DNA of 64,000 bases from Candidatus Hydrogenedentota bacterium (GTDB lineage Bacteria > Hydrogenedentota > Hydrogenedentia > Hydrogenedentales > JAEUWI01): positions 62,001 through 126,000 of the forward strand of contig JACPGE010000044.1 of NCBI GenBank assembly GCA_016182605.1, written 5' to 3'. The notes below the pieces were generated by a model that was not told the DNA's origin, did no database searches, and was given only the letters and a program-made list of their open reading frames with translations. The translations under genes were made by a program, and so were the position numbers. Shown here piece after piece: positions 48,641-55,905 of this stretch. The stretch's first letter is position 1; each line of letters starts with the position of its first letter.

Positions 48641-49102
48641 ATGACTCAAAGCATATACGTGGATGCAGACGGCTGCCCGGTGAAGGACGAGGTCTACAAG
48701 GTGGCCCGCCGCTATGGCTGGCGTGTTTTCCTGGTGGCCAACAAGTCCATGTTTCACCCCTCGGAGGATTTCGTGGAGATGGTGCTGGTGGACGATGGCT
48801 TCGACGCCGCGGACAACTGGATCGCGGAGCACGCCGGCCCGCAGGATGTCGTCATCACGGCGGACATCCCCCTGGCGGGGCGCTGCCTGGAGCGGGGCGC
48901 ACGGGTATTGGGGGTGAAGGGGCGGGTCTTTACGGAGGAGGGCATCGGCGGAGCGCTGGCGCAGCGGGAGTTTTCCTCCCAGATGCGGGAGCACGGCATG
49001 AACACCGGGGGCCCGGCGCCCTTTGGCCCCAAGGACCGATCCCGGTTTCTCCAGGCGCTGGACACGGCGATTCAGGCGTGCCTGCGCGAGGTGCGGCCCT
49101 GA
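48641..49102 (+). CDS. YaiI/YqxD family protein (DUF188)
   Basis: 153 residues, normal for the family. IYVDADGCPVKDEVYKVARRYGWRVFLVANKSM is the signature (family usually DADACPV). It is followed by MVLVDDGFDAADNWIAEHAGPQDVVITADIPLAGRCLERGARVLGVKGRVFTEEGIGGALAQREFSSQMRE and GPAPFGPKDRSRFLQALDTAI. It has a PIN-like fold with clustered Asp, and nuclease-type chemistry is suspected but unproven. The ATG is 6 bases after GGAATG. Confidence 0.92.
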   Translation: MTQSIYVDADGCPVKDEVYKVARRYGWRVFLVANKSMFHPSEDFVEMVLVDDGFDAADNWIAEHAGPQDVVITADIPLAGRCLERGARVLGVKGRVFTEEGIGGALAQREFSSQMREHGMNTGGPAPFGPKDRSRFLQALDTAIQACLREVRP

Positions 49103-49208
49103 TTCTTTTTGGTCTGGGGGAACCTGGAGCGGCTTCGGCGGGTCTGATGCGGTATTCTGTGTCTTCATACGGGCTGGGCGCCGTGCAACAACGTATAAGG
49201 AGGGATTC

Positions 49209-50660
49209 ATGAACGTGTCTCACAAGTTTTTAGGGGCGGCGCTTGCCGCAGCGCTGCTGTTCCCGGCAGCGTGGGCTTCGGCCGAGTTCAAGGTCGGCTT
49301 TGCCAAGGTAGATGTGACGCCGCAGGCGCCGGTGCCGATGTGGGGCTATGGCGCGCGCCACGATCTGCTTTCGCAAGGCACGCGGGATCCCCTTTACGCG
49401 AAGGCCCTGGTGATCGAATCGGGCGGGGAAAAACTCGCCCTGATTGGGCTCGACCTGGGCCGCTCCCCCGGCGATCCGGAGTATGGCCGCATCTGCGAGG
49501 CGGTGAAAGCCCAGGCCGGTGTCGCCCATGTGATGATGAGCGGATCGCACACGCACCACGGCCCCGTGCTGGAACTCAAAGATGAGCCGGGCAAGGGCCA
49601 GGGCAAGTTTGACGCGGCGGTGGCGTACCGGAGTGAACTGGAGAAGAAGCTGATTGCGGTGATCGTCGAGGCTGCTGGAAAGACACAACTGGCGACGGTG
49701 GGGTGGAGTTCTAAGGAAGTGGACATGAACCGGAACCGTCACGCGAAGGTGGAACCGAAGCCGCGTGACCCCGAACTCTCCGTGATCCGTTTCAACAGCA
49801 CCGCGGGCAAGCCGCTGGCCGTGCTGGTAAACTTCTCCGCGCACCCCACCATGCTGGATGGATCCGATCTCCGTTTTTCCGCGGAGTATCCCGGTGTGAT
49901 GATGAACACGGTGGAGGCGGCCCTCGGCACGAATTGCTTCTTCATGCAGGGGGCGGCGGGCGACATGTCCTGCAATCCCGCGGCGGAGGACAACCTGCCC
50001 GATAACGATCCTTCGCTTGCAGCGGAGAAGCTTCCGAAGGAACAGCGCGAACAGATTATGGCCCTGCGCAAGGTGAGCGAGGAAGACGCGCTTAAGGCGC
50101 AGCAGAACATGGTGCGGGACGATGCGAAGATGGTGAATTTTGGCACGCGCCTGGGCAAGGAAGTGATCGCACTGGCCGAATCCACCGAGACGAAGGCCCC
50201 TGCGAAAGAGTCGATCGAAGGCTTCTACAAGAATTTCGAATTCAAGTCGCGCGTGAACTTCAAGAATCCCGCGATCCAGGCGATGTTCCGCGGCGCTTTC
50301 TTTCCAGAGCTTGCCGATGCGTCCGTCGATGATGTTGCCGACAATATAATCCGCACGCGCCTCTCGGTGGTGCTGCTAAACGATGAGCTGGCGATGGTCG
50401 GCGGTTCCGGCGAATTCTTCTGCAATCACTCGGCCCGCATCAAGGAGCGCTCGGGCGCGGCGAAAACGCTCTTCTTCGGTTACTGCAACGGCCACAACAT
50501 GTACTTCCCCACAATCGAAGCCGCGTCCCAGGGCGGATACGGCGCCGATCCCACGGTGTCGTGGGTATCGCTGGGCGCCGGTGAAGAGATGATGAACGAG
50601 GCGCTGGTGCAGCTTTTTGTGTTCCTCGACAAGCTGAAGCTGGAGCCCGAGGGCGCTTAG
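49209..50660 (+). CDS. Exported neutral/alkaline ceramidase-like protein
   Basis: 483 residues. A signal peptide (about 1-25, ending WASAEF). The neutral/alkaline non-lysosomal ceramidase N-domain shows FKVGFAKVDVTPQAPVPMWGYGAR, DPLYAKALVIESGGEKLALIGLDLGRSPGD, HVMMSGSHTHHGPVLEL (zinc His cluster) and VNFSAHPTMLDGSDLRFSAEYPGVMMNTVE, ending in FLQLF-like VQLFVFLDKLKLEPEGA. The PVC homologues are abundant and their substrate is often not ceramide. AAGGAGG lies 5 bases before the ATG. A bidirectional hairpin follows. Confidence 0.85.
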   Translation: MNVSHKFLGAALAAALLFPAAWASAEFKVGFAKVDVTPQAPVPMWGYGARHDLLSQGTRDPLYAKALVIESGGEKLALIGLDLGRSPGDPEYGRICEAVKAQAGVAHVMMSGSHTHHGPVLELKDEPGKGQGKFDAAVAYRSELEKKLIAVIVEAAGKTQLATVGWSSKEVDMNRNRHAKVEPKPRDPELSVIRFNSTAGKPLAVLVNFSAHPTMLDGSDLRFSAEYPGVMMNTVEAALGTNCFFMQGAAGDMSCNPAAEDNLPDNDPSLAAEKLPKEQREQIMALRKVSEEDALKAQQNMVRDDAKMVNFGTRLGKEVIALAESTETKAPAKESIEGFYKNFEFKSRVNFKNPAIQAMFRGAFFPELADASVDDVADNIIRTRLSVVLLNDELAMVGGSGEFFCNHSARIKERSGAAKTLFFGYCNGHNMYFPTIEAASQGGYGADPTVSWVSLGAGEEMMNEALVQLFVFLDKLKLEPEGA

Positions 50661-50743: not shown

Positions 50744-51982
50744 TCAGTCTGTAGTAGTCTCGGGCGTTGTGTGGGCCAAGGGGTTTGTGTTTCTGGCGGC
50801 ATGTTTCGCTTCGCGCGCGAAGACCTCTTCCCAGTTCAAGTGGGCCGTGACGCGCATCAGGATCGCGAGCGTGATCACCGAACCCACCGCAATCGTGAGG
50901 CCACTGAGCCCTTCCAGGAAGAAGCTGTACGAAAAGAGCACCAGATAGAGGAGCTGGCCCGCGGCGGCTATCTTCCAGGGGAAGGCGCCTTTCAATGCCG
51001 CGGACAGGTAGGTGGTGACCAGAAAGACGGAGACGGCAGCGGAGATCATGAAGGCGCCGTGAATCGGGACGAGATCGGCCAGGTAGGCCAGCAGCAGGTG
51101 AAACGCGAAGAAGCCCGCCGCCACGAAGAGGTAGTGCATCGGGTGGATGTTTACCCGGTACACAATGTTGATCGCGGCCACCAGCACGAAGAAGAAGACG
51201 AGGCAGAACGGCGCAAAGAAGATAATGCGCGCGGTAAGCGGCCCGGGATTGAGCAGCTCCGGCACCACCACGCCGATGGATGCGCTCGTGATCAGATCGG
51301 TCGCCTGCCAGGTGAGGGTCTTGCCTTCGGCGCTGTCTTCGGCGCGCGCCGGAGAGAGGCTGCTCTCCGGATAATCCACGTCTCGGAAATTCGTGTTCAC
51401 CGTCAGGGCGAGTTGCTGCACCCGGCCGGTCTGCGGCGCGGGCCGGTACCACCAGGTGCCTAGGCCCCGTGTGGTGTAGGCGACGGAGACTTCCGCGCTT
51501 TCCCCGGGCTGCAATTCCACAAATTCATCCACGCCTTCGGCGATCTTCAGCGGCTGGGTGTAGGGCGTGCCGTTGATGGCCATCTGGAACGCGTCGTAGG
51601 TGCCATCGGGCGTGGGGAACGCGAAGTGGAAGCGGAGTTTCTGGGCGACGGCCTCGTCGTTGCTGACCGTATAGCGCCCGCTGAACGCGCACACGTAAGT
51701 TGGGAACCACAACAACCCCTTCCGCCGGTAGTCGGCGTCCAGCGACACCGTGACGGTGTTTTCCACCGGCAGTATCCACCGGACCTGGTCGGAACCCGGC
51801 ACGGCAACACTGAAGGTGGGCGCGTTCTGCGTGAGCGGGGCGCCCCACGAGGAGGCCACGCTCGCCCCCATGTCCGAGGCACTTTGTTGCGTGCGCTGGT
51901 GCATGGAGCTTCCGAGGACCCACCAGGCGGCGGAGGCGGCGGCGAGTATCAAGAGTATCGCGGCAATCTTGCTTGCGTTCAT
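50744..51982 (-). CDS. creD: CreD-like inner membrane protein
   Basis: 412 residues. A first membrane anchor (about 5-24), a large exported beta-rich domain (about 25-260), then at least five membrane helices. The CreD hallmark NIVYRVNIHPMHYLFVAAGFFAFHLLLAYLADLVP is clear. CreD is the major target of CreBC and affects envelope integrity and beta-lactam/colicin tolerance. In this window it is the last gene of a two-gene unit (unknown exported gene, then creD, 13 bp apart) preceded by a tandem cre-tag, so CreB control is likely. The C-terminus is a short cytoplasmic tail. Confidence 0.9.
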   Translation of the reverse strand: MNASKIAAILLILAAASAAWWVLGSSMHQRTQQSASDMGASVASSWGAPLTQNAPTFSVAVPGSDQVRWILPVENTVTVSLDADYRRKGLLWFPTYVCAFSGRYTVSNDEAVAQKLRFHFAFPTPDGTYDAFQMAINGTPYTQPLKIAEGVDEFVELQPGESAEVSVAYTTRGLGTWWYRPAPQTGRVQQLALTVNTNFRDVDYPESSLSPARAEDSAEGKTLTWQATDLITSASIGVVVPELLNPGPLTARIIFFAPFCLVFFFVLVAAINIVYRVNIHPMHYLFVAAGFFAFHLLLAYLADLVPIHGAFMISAAVSVFLVTTYLSAALKGAFPWKIAAAGQLLYLVLFSYSFFLEGLSGLTIAVGSVITLAILMRVTAHLNWEEVFAREAKHAARNTNPLAHTTPETTTD

Positions 51983-51995
51983 GGGGTGCTCCTGT

Positions 51996-53639
51996 CTATC
52001 GTGCCGGGTTGACCGGTTCTTTGTACCAGAGGGAAAGAGTCATTGCTTCGCCGTCGTGGAAGGAGCGCGAGAAGAAGTACGGGTTGCCGCCTTCCTTCGA
52101 GATCCCATCCCAGCCTGCGCCGTTGTCCGCGCTGACGGGTCCTTCCAGCGACCGCAGTTCCACACGAGAGGGCAGCACCAGGGCGACGCGCACCCGCTGC
52201 GCCGGGAATCCAATCTTCGGCAGCACCACCTGCAACTCACCCTGCAAACCCAGCTTTTCGCCCTGGCTGAGAAAGGTGAGTTCGACGTGGGAAAGCTTCC
52301 CCGGATCGAGCGGCACGATCCAGGCGCCGTCTTCCGCGGTGTATACGCTCTTCGCTGCGCCATTCACCGTGAGCGACCAGACCTCGGCGCCAGGCACCGA
52401 GTCGACATGCAATCGGGGCCCCGATTCTGGCGGCAGGTCCAGTGTCAGCGTGGTGAGCGCGCTGCCGCTCTCCTCGAAGGCCACGGTGTATCGTTCTTCC
52501 TCCAGCACGGCCGCAGGCGTGTTCAGGGGGGTGTAGCGATTGAAGGTCAGCGTGATGGGCAGGCCGGGGGGCGCCCGGTTGAATTGGGGCTCGGGCGCCA
52601 GGCCTTCGGCGAATTGCAGGCCCAGCTTGCTCATGGGGATGGCCGAGACCAGTTCCTCCGCCGCGGCGGTCACCTGGCCATCGTCCGGCTGCACAAGGAT
52701 GAAACGGCCTTCGCGTCCGGTGTTTCCCTCAATGAGTGGCAGGACCAGTTCATGGGTGGCGTTGTCCGGAGCAATCTCCAGCGAAAGTTCGACCGAAAAT
52801 GGTGTGCGATCTTCGGCGGAGGGGCGCAACTCCAGGCGTCCCTCTTCCAGCATACGAATCTGGGAATTCTTGAGGGCGGTGCTCACAAGCGCGGCATTGC
52901 CCGGCACCCGCAGTATTACCGGACGACTGACCGGGCGCACGGGATGGAGATGGGTTTCCAGCAGGAGCCGGTTTTGCTGCACGCTCACGCGGGTAAGGAG
53001 GTCCACCTCAATCACCGGGGCGACGTCTGCGTGTGCCTTCGCGCGGTAGTGCAGCGCCAATCGATCGGCCGTCACCAGGTGATAGCCGCCTTCTGTGCCC
53101 GCGACGCCGGGCGCCTCCAGAAGCACGGTCTCTGGCGGCAGCGAGAGCGTCAGTGTGCCCTGCAACGCGGGTGGCGTCGCAAAGGCGACTACCCGCCCAG
53201 AGTCGTCTTCCGTGGTGCGAACCCGGAACTTGCAGGCGACGATGAACGCGGCCGCGCTGCCATCGGGAAGCAAGGCCAGGCGATCCTCCTCCTGTTGATA
53301 GATCAATGCGCCTCCGCTCACCTCTTCGATGGCCGTGAGCACCACGCCGCCAAGCAGCGGAATGGGGGTGGGCGTTCCACCGAGGATACGTCCGCTCAGC
53401 CGCACCGAACAGTCCGCGTCCGTCTCCCCCACGTCGATGCGGTACGCCGCAGACTCGACCACGTGCACCTGGGGAGTTATCAGTTCCGGACCAAGCGTCT
53501 CTTTCAACTCGCGTTCAATATGCTCGCGGTAGAGCGCGCGAAACTCTTCCCACGGCAGCGGCACCGGCACCGGCGTTTCACTCCACGCCGGCACTCCCAT
53601 CAGAACCAAGGCAAGCAGTGCCCATATCCGTTTCATCAT
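51996..53639 (-). CDS. Unknown exported protein in the predicted CreB regulon
   Basis: 547 residues. A signal peptide (MMKRIWALLALVLMGVPAWS, cleavage about 21). The rest is beta-strand-rich with few helices: YRIDVGETDADCSVRLSGRILGG, GALIYQQEEDRLALLPDGSAAAFIVACKFRVRT, GTLTLSLPPETVLLEAPGVAG, FSVELSLEIAPDNATHELVLPLIEG, TLDLPPESGPRLHVDSVPGAEVWSLTVNG. It ends in HDGEAMTLSLWYKEPVNPAR. No family is recognised. It resembles stacked beta-sandwich periplasmic proteins. ATG 53639 has AAGG 5 bases ahead. It sits between creC and creD where E. coli has no gene, and carries the cre-tag promoter. Confidence 0.75.
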   Translation of the reverse strand: MMKRIWALLALVLMGVPAWSETPVPVPLPWEEFRALYREHIERELKETLGPELITPQVHVVESAAYRIDVGETDADCSVRLSGRILGGTPTPIPLLGGVVLTAIEEVSGGALIYQQEEDRLALLPDGSAAAFIVACKFRVRTTEDDSGRVVAFATPPALQGTLTLSLPPETVLLEAPGVAGTEGGYHLVTADRLALHYRAKAHADVAPVIEVDLLTRVSVQQNRLLLETHLHPVRPVSRPVILRVPGNAALVSTALKNSQIRMLEEGRLELRPSAEDRTPFSVELSLEIAPDNATHELVLPLIEGNTGREGRFILVQPDDGQVTAAAEELVSAIPMSKLGLQFAEGLAPEPQFNRAPPGLPITLTFNRYTPLNTPAAVLEEERYTVAFEESGSALTTLTLDLPPESGPRLHVDSVPGAEVWSLTVNGAAKSVYTAEDGAWIVPLDPGKLSHVELTFLSQGEKLGLQGELQVVLPKIGFPAQRVRVALVLPSRVELRSLEGPVSADNGAGWDGISKEGGNPYFFSRSFHDGEAMTLSLWYKEPVNPAR

Positions 53640-53694: not shown

Positions 53695-53748
53695 AGAATA
53701 CCCGTGCACTGTGAAGTGGGGGTGAAGCCTGCGGGGATTCGCGGTGAA
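53695..53748 (-). promoter_or_regulatory. Tandem cre-tag (CreB binding) promoter
   Basis: Read on the minus strand: TTCAC at 53748-53744, a degenerate TCCCC at 53737-53733, TTCAC at 53726-53722 and TTCAC at 53715-53711. All are spaced exactly 11 bp, giving TTCAC-N6-TTCAC, the cre-tag of E. coli. Ten bases downstream is TATTCT (53700-53695), a -10 at the distance used by OmpR/PhoB-type activators. A transcript would begin about 50 bases before the unknown gene. Confidence 0.85.
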
Positions 53749-53773: not shown

Positions 53774-55216
53774 TTATACGCTTTCCGGGGCCGGAAGCGG
53801 AAGTTGCAGCACGGCGCAAACACCATCAGCCGTGTTCTCGAGGTGAACCCTGCCCCCGTGCAATGTGGCCACTTCGCGCGCGAAGGGCAAGCCCAGCCCG
53901 GAACTCTTGCGCCCGGTTCCGGGCCGCTGCAGGGAGTAGAAGCGTTCAAAAACGCGGGGGAGCGCGTAATCGGGAATCTGCGGCCCAGTATTGCCAATCC
54001 GGACGCATGCACCCGTCTTTTCGGCGCTCACGTCCACCTGGATGATCGCGTTGTCGCTGCTGAAATCGAGGGCATTCTGCAAGAGGTTGGCCAGCGCCTG
54101 ATACAGCAGGAAATGTTCGCCCAATACCGTAATGGAGCTTTCCGCGGTAACCTCGAACCGCACTTGCCGCAGCGCGCCTGCCGCCGCCAGATCCTGCGCG
54201 GCTTCCCGCGTGAGCGTGGCGAGATCGACGGCTTCCACATCGCGCAGTCCCATTCTGTTCTCCAGCGCGGCCAATTCGAGGATCCGTTCGATCACATCGT
54301 GCAGCCGTTGAGACTCGTTCCGGAGATTCGTGAGAAACTTTGCGCGCTGTTCTGGGGACATCTCTTCATCGAGCAGTTCCGCGGCGCCCTGTATGGCCGA
54401 GAGGGGACTCTTCATCTGGTGGGTCAGGGTCTGCACATACTCTTCGACGTACTTCTTGCCTTCGAGTTCCGACCGCATTTCTTCGAAGGCCTGACCCAAG
54501 GCGCCGATTTCGTTTTTCCCCAGGATGGGCAGCACGGAGCGCCGGCCGTCGCGGATGGCCCGCGCATGCCGGATCAACTGCTCGATGGGCCAGGTGATCC
54601 AGGAGGATACGAGCAGGCCGAACAGGACAACCATAAACGCCGCCATGACGCCCGCGAACATGATCTTCGTGCGTGCGGTTTCCAGGAAATGGGCGACGCT
54701 CCGGGCGGGTTTGCCGACCGAGAGGACGCCGGCGATCTGTCCATTCACGATGACAGGAGAAGCGACATAGAGCACCTCTGAGAGCGGGTCATCGGGAACT
54801 TCCAGGGTAGCGCGCGCGCCATACTGACCGCGCAACGTTTTGTAGACATCGTTCCAGAGCGCATAATCCTTCCCCTCATCGCGCCCGCCGCTGGAATCGT
54901 AAAGCACTTTTCCTGTCCGATCGGTCACATAGACGCGCAGATCCATTTTCGTTTTCGTCACTTCGTAGATGCGCGCGGACAGCGTCCGTTTCTGGGCGCG
55001 GTTTAGCGCCAGGCCCAGCGTTGACGTGTCGATGACGCCCGCTGCCGCCTCGTTGGCGGCCCAGGTGGAAAGCACGGTGGCCGTATCCACCATGGACTCT
55101 TCCATCGCTGCCAAGTAGCGCGGCCGGAGATCGGCGATCACCCAGTCCACAAGCCAATAGATGCCGGCGCCCGCCAGCAGCAGGAAGGCCAGGGCAATGC
55201 GCGCACGAATACTCAC
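53774..55216 (-). CDS. creC: Sensor histidine kinase CreC
   Basis: 480 residues (E. coli CreC 474). Two membrane helices (about 7-26 and 175-197) flank an exported sensor domain that has LYDSSGG, WNDVYKTLRGQYGARATLEVPDDPLSEVLYVASPVI, which is highly CreC-specific. It is followed by HAMP, the H-box LTHQMKSPLSAIQGAAELLDEE (phospho-His), N-box LLQNALDFSSDN, and DYALPRVFERFYSLQRPGTGRKSSGLGLPFAREVA. It phosphorylates CreB. The GTG start overlaps the creB stop (GTGA), so creB-creC are coupled. The stimulus is not known from sequence. Confidence 0.95.
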   Translation of the reverse strand: MSIRARIALAFLLLAGAGIYWLVDWVIADLRPRYLAAMEESMVDTATVLSTWAANEAAAGVIDTSTLGLALNRAQKRTLSARIYEVTKTKMDLRVYVTDRTGKVLYDSSGGRDEGKDYALWNDVYKTLRGQYGARATLEVPDDPLSEVLYVASPVIVNGQIAGVLSVGKPARSVAHFLETARTKIMFAGVMAAFMVVLFGLLVSSWITWPIEQLIRHARAIRDGRRSVLPILGKNEIGALGQAFEEMRSELEGKKYVEEYVQTLTHQMKSPLSAIQGAAELLDEEMSPEQRAKFLTNLRNESQRLHDVIERILELAALENRMGLRDVEAVDLATLTREAAQDLAAAGALRQVRFEVTAESSITVLGEHFLLYQALANLLQNALDFSSDNAIIQVDVSAEKTGACVRIGNTGPQIPDYALPRVFERFYSLQRPGTGRKSSGLGLPFAREVATLHGGRVHLENTADGVCAVLQLPLPAPESV

Positions 55217-55905
55217 CACACCTCCCGCAGCGAATAGCCCACGCCCCGGTGTGTCACAATGGGGTCTATCTCCGGATGCGCCACGCGCATTTTCGCGCGC
55301 AGCGTCTTGATATGGGTGTCCACGGTGCGCTCCATGCTTGCCTCGGGCGCTTCCCACACCAGGTGCATGAGTTGCTCCCGTGTGTAGACCCGGCCAGGCC
55401 GCTTTGCAAGCAGTTCCAGCATGCGGAACTCGTAACGCGAAAGATCCAGCGCGTTCCCAAAATAGATGACCTTCATCCGCGGTGCGTCGATCTGGATAGG
55501 AGAGGCCGCGCATTCCTCCGCCGCTGTAGAGGGGCCCGCTGCACGCCGGAGCACGGCCTTTACCCGAGCCGTCAGTTCGCGCGGACTGAAGGGCTTCGCC
55601 ATGTAGTCGTCCCCGCCCAGTTCCAGGCCCACCACCCGATCGATCTCGTCACTGCGCGCGGTGAGGAAGATGACCGGCACATTCGAGTGCTTGCGCAGAT
55701 CGCGGCACCAGTCGAAGCCGCTCCGGTCCGGCAGGCCCACATCCAGCACGACGAGATGCACCGACTGCGCGTCGAGGACGCCCTGCGCCTCCACGGTAGT
55801 CGCGCGCCAATGGACCTGAAAGCCTTCCGTTTCCAGCGCATAGACAATGTTGTCCGCGATGGCCGGCTCGTCTTCGACTATCAGGATGGTTTGCGTCATG
55901 CCCAT
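55213..55905 (-). CDS. creB: Response regulator CreB
   Basis: 230 residues, OmpR/PhoB family. The receiver has ILIVEDEPAIADNI (acidic pocket), phospho-Asp in HLVVLDVGLPDRSGFDWCRDLR, VIFLTARSDEIDRVVGLELGGDDYMAKPFSPREL (Thr, Lys). The C-terminal winged helix reads LDLSRYEFRMLELLAKRPGRVYTREQLMHLVWEAPEASMERTVDTHIKTLRAKM. It is first gene of creB-creC. It should bind TTCAC-N6-TTCAC direct repeats; such repeats precede the next unit (53711-53748). AGGAACGCA precedes the start ATG. There is no cre-tag in its own upstream region. Confidence 0.94.
   Translation of the reverse strand: MGMTQTILIVEDEPAIADNIVYALETEGFQVHWRATTVEAQGVLDAQSVHLVVLDVGLPDRSGFDWCRDLRKHSNVPVIFLTARSDEIDRVVGLELGGDDYMAKPFSPRELTARVKAVLRRAAGPSTAAEECAASPIQIDAPRMKVIYFGNALDLSRYEFRMLELLAKRPGRVYTREQLMHLVWEAPEASMERTVDTHIKTLRAKMRVAHPEIDPIVTHRGVGYSLREVW

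Follow-up and report, generated by a model that had tools for sequence, protein, structure and literature searches.

What controls the genes that stand next to creBC in a bacterium distant from Escherichia coli? To our knowledge, work on CreBC and creD has been confined to a few gammaproteobacteria, and the role of CreD is poorly known. The window analyzed here, a 64-kb stretch (64,000 nucleotides) of a Candidatus Hydrogenedentota genome, carries creB and creC followed by a two-gene unit with a creD-like second gene. An earlier reading made from the letters alone (the sequence-only reading) had called the genome PVC-like, for which Hydrogenedentota is the better name, and had proposed that the gap after creC holds tandem CreB sites.

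The creBC-creD locus and its array

Four genes, all on the minus strand, make up the locus.

55213..55905, minus strand: CreB response regulator, OmpR/PhoB family (NF008296, 322 bits; cut-off, 273)
53774..55219, minus strand: CreC histidine kinase (NF008312, 563 bits; cut-off, 356)
51996..53639, minus strand: secreted all-beta protein without family, 547 aa, first gene of the unit
50744..51982, minus strand: CreD-like inner-membrane protein, 412 aa, second gene of the unit

The cut-offs passed by CreB and CreC are those of NCBI equivalog level, and CreB shares 50% identity with its E. coli counterpart. The creD label holds for one part of the protein. Its C-terminal membrane portion (residues 232-385, 154 residues) matches the CreD family PF06123 with 60 bits against a cut-off of 23, the rest lies outside the match, and the score against NCBIfam CreD (NF008712) is 62 bits, below the cut-off of 275. 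The 547-aa protein is predicted to be all-beta (mean pLDDT, 78; pTM, 0.43), and a fold search with this model returned large all-beta matches with TM of <0.31 and no functional assignment. Beyond creD, the opposite strand carries a gene with a weak neutral ceramidase match (49083-50660, plus strand; PF04734, 34.7 bits; cut-off, 32.1).

The array occupies the 134-bp gap after creC. From 53748 to 53695, the minus strand reads TTCAC-CGCGAA-TCCCC-GCAGGC-TTCAC-CCCCAC-TTCAC-AGTGCACGGG-TATTCT, with the following elements.

53744..53748, minus strand: half-site 1, TTCAC
53733..53737, minus strand: half-site 2, TCCCC, degenerate; relative G038 also has TCCCC at the equivalent position
53722..53726, minus strand: half-site 3, TTCAC; most relatives have TTCAA
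53711..53715, minus strand: half-site 4, TTCAC, in the -35 zone
53695..53700, minus strand: predicted -10 element, TATTCT, 10 bp after half-site 4

Rereading of the minus strand bore out the earlier description exactly with respect to coordinates, 11-bp phase, N10 gap to TATTCT, the three perfect TTCAC half-sites with one degenerate TCCCC, and placement between creC and the unit. A search at 15 to 19 bp from TATTCT found no -35-like hexamer. The ATG of the first gene of the unit lies 55 bp beyond the end of the -10-like hexamer.

Conservation within the order

The search of the order covered 68 genomes. A strong creD match occurs in 11 of them, always preceded by the gene for the family-less protein, and exactly the same 11 carry CreC above the cut-off. 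The expectation that the motif should be conserved upstream of creD orthologues in relatives was borne out, as every CreC-bearing genome (11/11) has the four-half-site array upstream of the gene pair. These promoters yield the consensus TTCAC-N6-TTCAC-N6-TTCAA-N6-TTCAC-N10-TATCCT, in which half-sites 1 to 4 retain 8.7, 7.6, 8.1, and 8.9 of 10 bits, respectively; the first spacer is conserved too (8.2 of 12 bits), and the other two much less so. The weakest array is that of G006, with proximal half-sites TTCCC and CACAC, which a four-site pattern at ≤2 mismatches missed and a three-site pattern found.

At ≤1 mismatch, the four-site pattern gave eight matches in the 68 genomes, all at the gene-creD unit, and none in the 57 genomes without CreC or in the reversed control; at ≤2 mismatches, three off-target matches appeared in the 11 genomes (G006:C36, G054:C574, and G064:C92). 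In three of the relatives (G014, G048, and G052), no creC occurs within the 1.0, 1.5, and 5.6 kb of sequence available upstream of the array, respectively, and CreC is encoded on another contig. The array still lies beside the gene for the family-less protein, which argues that it serves this gene and creD. What comparison between genomes establishes is a conserved array, fixed in phase and position and linked to CreBC.

Relationship to the cre/blr-tag and the pho box

The cre/blr-tag, TTCACnnnnnnTTCAC, marks the E. coli CreBC and Aeromonas BlrAB regulons (PMC3660660, PMC4689548) and is reported to be required for CreB/BlrA action (PMC4689548, PMC3660660). Within the array, 53726-53711 is an exact TTCAC-N6-TTCAC direct repeat. 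Its place, before a gene pair that includes creD, is the one expected of such a tag, and the genome encodes a genuine CreB and CreC. The identification of the window motif with that of E. coli CreB is supported: half-site and N6 spacer are the same, and both proteins exceed the equivalog cut-offs. Shared with the described systems are the half-site, the spacer, the creBC and creD neighbors, and the CreB recognition stretch. The window differs in its phylum, in having four half-sites instead of the described pair, in the secreted protein without family that precedes creD, and in a creD that is only partly alike. The array belongs to the cre/blr-tag kind as a distant member with four repeats, a form for which we found no prior description.

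The E. coli K-12 creD promoter itself is laid out similarly: TTCAC-CGTCAC-TTCAC-ATAGC-TTCAA-ATTCTT-CCCAC-N10-TATCCT, i.e., the known tag, a 1-bp slip, and a proximal pair that is degenerate. As in the window, four half-sites are followed by N10 and a -10 element (TATCCT); in contrast, one spacer has 5 bp instead of 6, and the exact pair is distal rather than proximal. The cbrA and cbrB promoters of E. coli place an exact pair 10 bp from the -10-like TAGTCT and TAAATT, respectively, all of these E. coli -10 elements being assigned by eye. A search of papers outside the primary cre-tag literature turned up no mention of the proximal pair of E. coli creD, which does not prove it to be new.

Stenotrophomonas maltophilia provides a further point of comparison. 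Its creD tag, TTCACACTCGCTTCAA (PMC4689548), has the form TTCAC-N6-TTCAA and corresponds to half-sites 2 and 3 of the Hydrogenedentota consensus; unlike the array, it is reported as a pair, and control there is not simple activation. The pho box of PhoB consists of two 11-bp direct repeats with the core CTGTCAT (PMC2648988). It resembles the window array in these repeats and in the winged-helix regulator of the same family, and differs in its core, which the array lacks, as well as in recognition residues and regulon.

Recurrence of the layout in other phyla

A scan based on a CreC alignment yielded 80 named loci, with phylum names as in the titles of the sequence records. In the 275-bp stretch at the creC 3' end, nine of the top twelve repeated 5-mers recur with a period of 11, the most frequent being CTTCA, TTCAC, and TCCAC. 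The 76 loci from other lineages were then scanned in full and on both strands with a 54-bp matrix whose training set was the 11 promoters of the Hydrogenedentota order alone. At 39 loci, many of them Pseudomonas and thus not independent, the best match fell in the zone that directly precedes creD or follows the 3' end of creC, versus 1.3 of the 76 expected by area. Column-shuffled matrices placed a mean of 3.4 and a maximum of 9 best matches in the same zone, and the reversed matrix placed 14. With half-sites only, a spacer of 6 was found at 34 to 37 loci versus 2 to 7 for spacers of 3 to 5 and 7 to 9; the gap to the -10 element fits best at 10 (37 loci), other gaps giving 23 to 30. Roughly half of the CreC loci tested lack a strong site in the expected zone, and several of them have no creD there. 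In the phylum of G095, CreC was present in only 2 of 195 genomes. Strong matches from five phyla illustrate the spread.

L067, Fibrobacterota: 48.6 bits
L117, Verrucomicrobiota: 48.5 bits, before a VIT-VWA gene
L078, Pontiella (Kiritimatiellota): 42.8 bits
L077, Acidobacteriota: 35.7 bits
L129, Myxococcota: 32.1 bits

The four-repeat layout recurs before creD in many phyla, and the CreB switch, so far known from E. coli and related bacteria only, therefore looks old and widespread. A CreB operator that is readable from sequence would allow CreB targets to be called in phyla beyond culture. A more general picture, in which the basic creD operator of many phyla, including that of E. coli, consists of four half-sites in 11-bp phase 10 bp from the -10 element, combined with a switch at CreB residue 197 and control of VIT-VWA genes, has about an even chance of being right in full.

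CreB recognition stretch and half-site drift

Residues 193-201 of CreB, RTVDTHIKT, are identical in the window and E. coli proteins; the equivalent residues of PhoB are RTVDVHIRR. The suggestion that DNA recognition by CreB is conserved between phyla stands as regards this stretch and the layout before creD in other phyla, and needs qualifying as regards the half-sites themselves, which drift to TCCAC in Pseudomonas and TTCAT in some other bacteria.

A scan that favored neither T nor C at base 2 of the half-sites gave a pairing with residue 197 of CreB. Thr or Ala at this residue went with TTCA half-sites, i.e., TTCAC/TTCAT (base 2: T, 84; C, 1; G, 2). Ser, most cases of which belong to one Pseudomonas clade, went with TCCA half-sites (base 2: C, 43; T, 6; G, 4; A, 1). 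Examples of TCCAC/TCCAT half-sites with a Ser197 CreB are L093:7455 and Pseudomonas loci such as L131:7408, L124:7436, and L110:8068. In the CreB tree, the Planctomycetales protein of L093 (Ser, TCCA), a long branch, falls beside a Verrucomicrobiaceae CreB (Ala, TTCA) and away from Pseudomonas, so the T-to-C shift may have arisen twice. The Chitinivibrionales locus L063 (Ser, mostly TTCA) and L121 (Ser, mixed sites) do not fit. Owing to these two loci and to the Pseudomonas-heavy Ser set, we set aside a clean one-residue specificity code. The pairing is suggestive only, a lead rather than a code, and such natural pairs of recognition helix and half-site are material for testing specificity change in OmpR-family regulators.

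A predicted CreB-controlled promoter and its alternatives

Order-wide arrays, co-occurrence with CreC, matches across lineages, the E. coli layout, and the identical CreB stretch together point to the window array as a CreB operator. Judged by sequence comparison, 53748-53695 (minus strand) is very probably a CreB-controlled promoter of the gene-creD unit. Phosphorylated CreB would bind the four half-sites, 11 bp apart, as two head-to-tail dimers. Half-site 4 would occupy the -35 place, 10 bp from the -10 element TATTCT, and CreB bound there would bring in sigma-70 RNA polymerase in the way that PhoB does at the pho box. What we infer is that CreB binds, that binding depends on its phosphorylation, that the effect is activation and not repression, and that two dimers take part.

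Might the repeats have arisen by chance within an intergenic stretch? Single pairs do turn up inside open reading frames (ORFs) elsewhere in the genome, and the exact pair, with one occurrence in the 64-kb window, has an expectation of 0.065 there. Three of four TTCAC at 11-bp phase, however, never appeared in 200 Markov resamplings of the window. A matrix built from ten relatives, the window being left out, scored the window site at 37.7 bits and the second-best nonoverlapping site in the 64 kb at 3.8 bits. Retention in all CreC-bearing relatives of the order and independent recovery in other phyla leave coincidence with a negligible probability; the array is not a chance occurrence. Binding by another OmpR/PhoB-family regulator, e.g., PhoB, with incidental adjacency of creBC, could account for a direct-repeat geometry of 11 bp that is common to the family and known from the pho box (PMC2648988). 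This reading is highly improbable given half-sites of TTCAC/TCCCC rather than CTGTCAT, the differing recognition residues of PhoB, the confinement of the array to CreC-bearing genomes among the 68 of the order, and its place 3' of creC or before creD in other lineages.

A subtler alternative keeps CreB as the regulator and changes its action: CreB might repress here, or act as one dimer on half-sites 3 and 4, the upstream two being leftovers. Activation is the usual sign of creD control by CreB. Nevertheless, S. maltophilia creD rises upon removal of creBC (PMC4689548), and the sign of control is thus not universal. The layout of E. coli cbrA and cbrB suggests that one proximal pair can suffice, and half-site 2 is degenerate in the window. 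Set against this, half-sites 1 and 2 are as conserved as half-sites 3 and 4 in the order, and a site that ends 10 bp before the -10 element where no -35 hexamer is found fits activation. We consider repression or a single dimer unlikely and favor activation by two CreB dimers.

Reach of the predicted regulon

The proposed regulon assignment is upheld for the transcription unit of the family-less gene and creD, and fails for lone pairs elsewhere in the genome. Plain TTCAC-N6-TTCAC occurs at 11 sites, compared with 4 in the reversed control. Of the ten sites other than that of the window array, about six lie inside long ORFs (rough six-frame ORFs); the four-site array is present in a single copy. 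Lone pairs were rejected as regulon markers, the others being mostly in ORFs or lacking a convincing downstream gene. A pair-like pattern followed by N10 and TANNNT gave 8 scattered matches in the 11 genomes versus 3 in the reversed control and established no common second target. Autoregulation of creB was also rejected, since no array was found upstream of this gene.

Similar arrays precede genes for VIT-VWA secreted proteins close to creBC. They occur in Desulfobacterales, Bdellovibrionales, Verrucomicrobiota, and Holophagae (L074:2242, L080:10267 [minus strand], L072:2398, L073:2081, L082:4741, L117:7558, L079:7502, L081:7565, L090:5013 [minus strand], and L070:1860). VIT and VWA domains are present in the five proteins checked against Pfam, and the four checked against NCBIfam resemble marine sortase target proteins with scores below the cut-off. 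VIT-VWA genes are predicted to be further CreB targets, which would tie these proteins elsewhere, and the secreted protein without family here, to the CreB switch.

Relatives of the family-less gene precede a creD-like gene in a member of the Verrucomicrobiaceae (L095:1243-2979; 18% identity) and in a gammaproteobacterial MAG (L086:7530-9155; 28% identity), the former with an array 62 bp upstream. At L121:5248 (minus strand), an array-like site of 32.9 bits lies upstream of a DUF4153 membrane-protein gene divergent from creBC. Finally, the CreB of L060 (JAACEL010000059.1), recorded as Nitrospiraceae, falls among Hydrogenedentota CreB proteins in the tree, and this label looks wrong.
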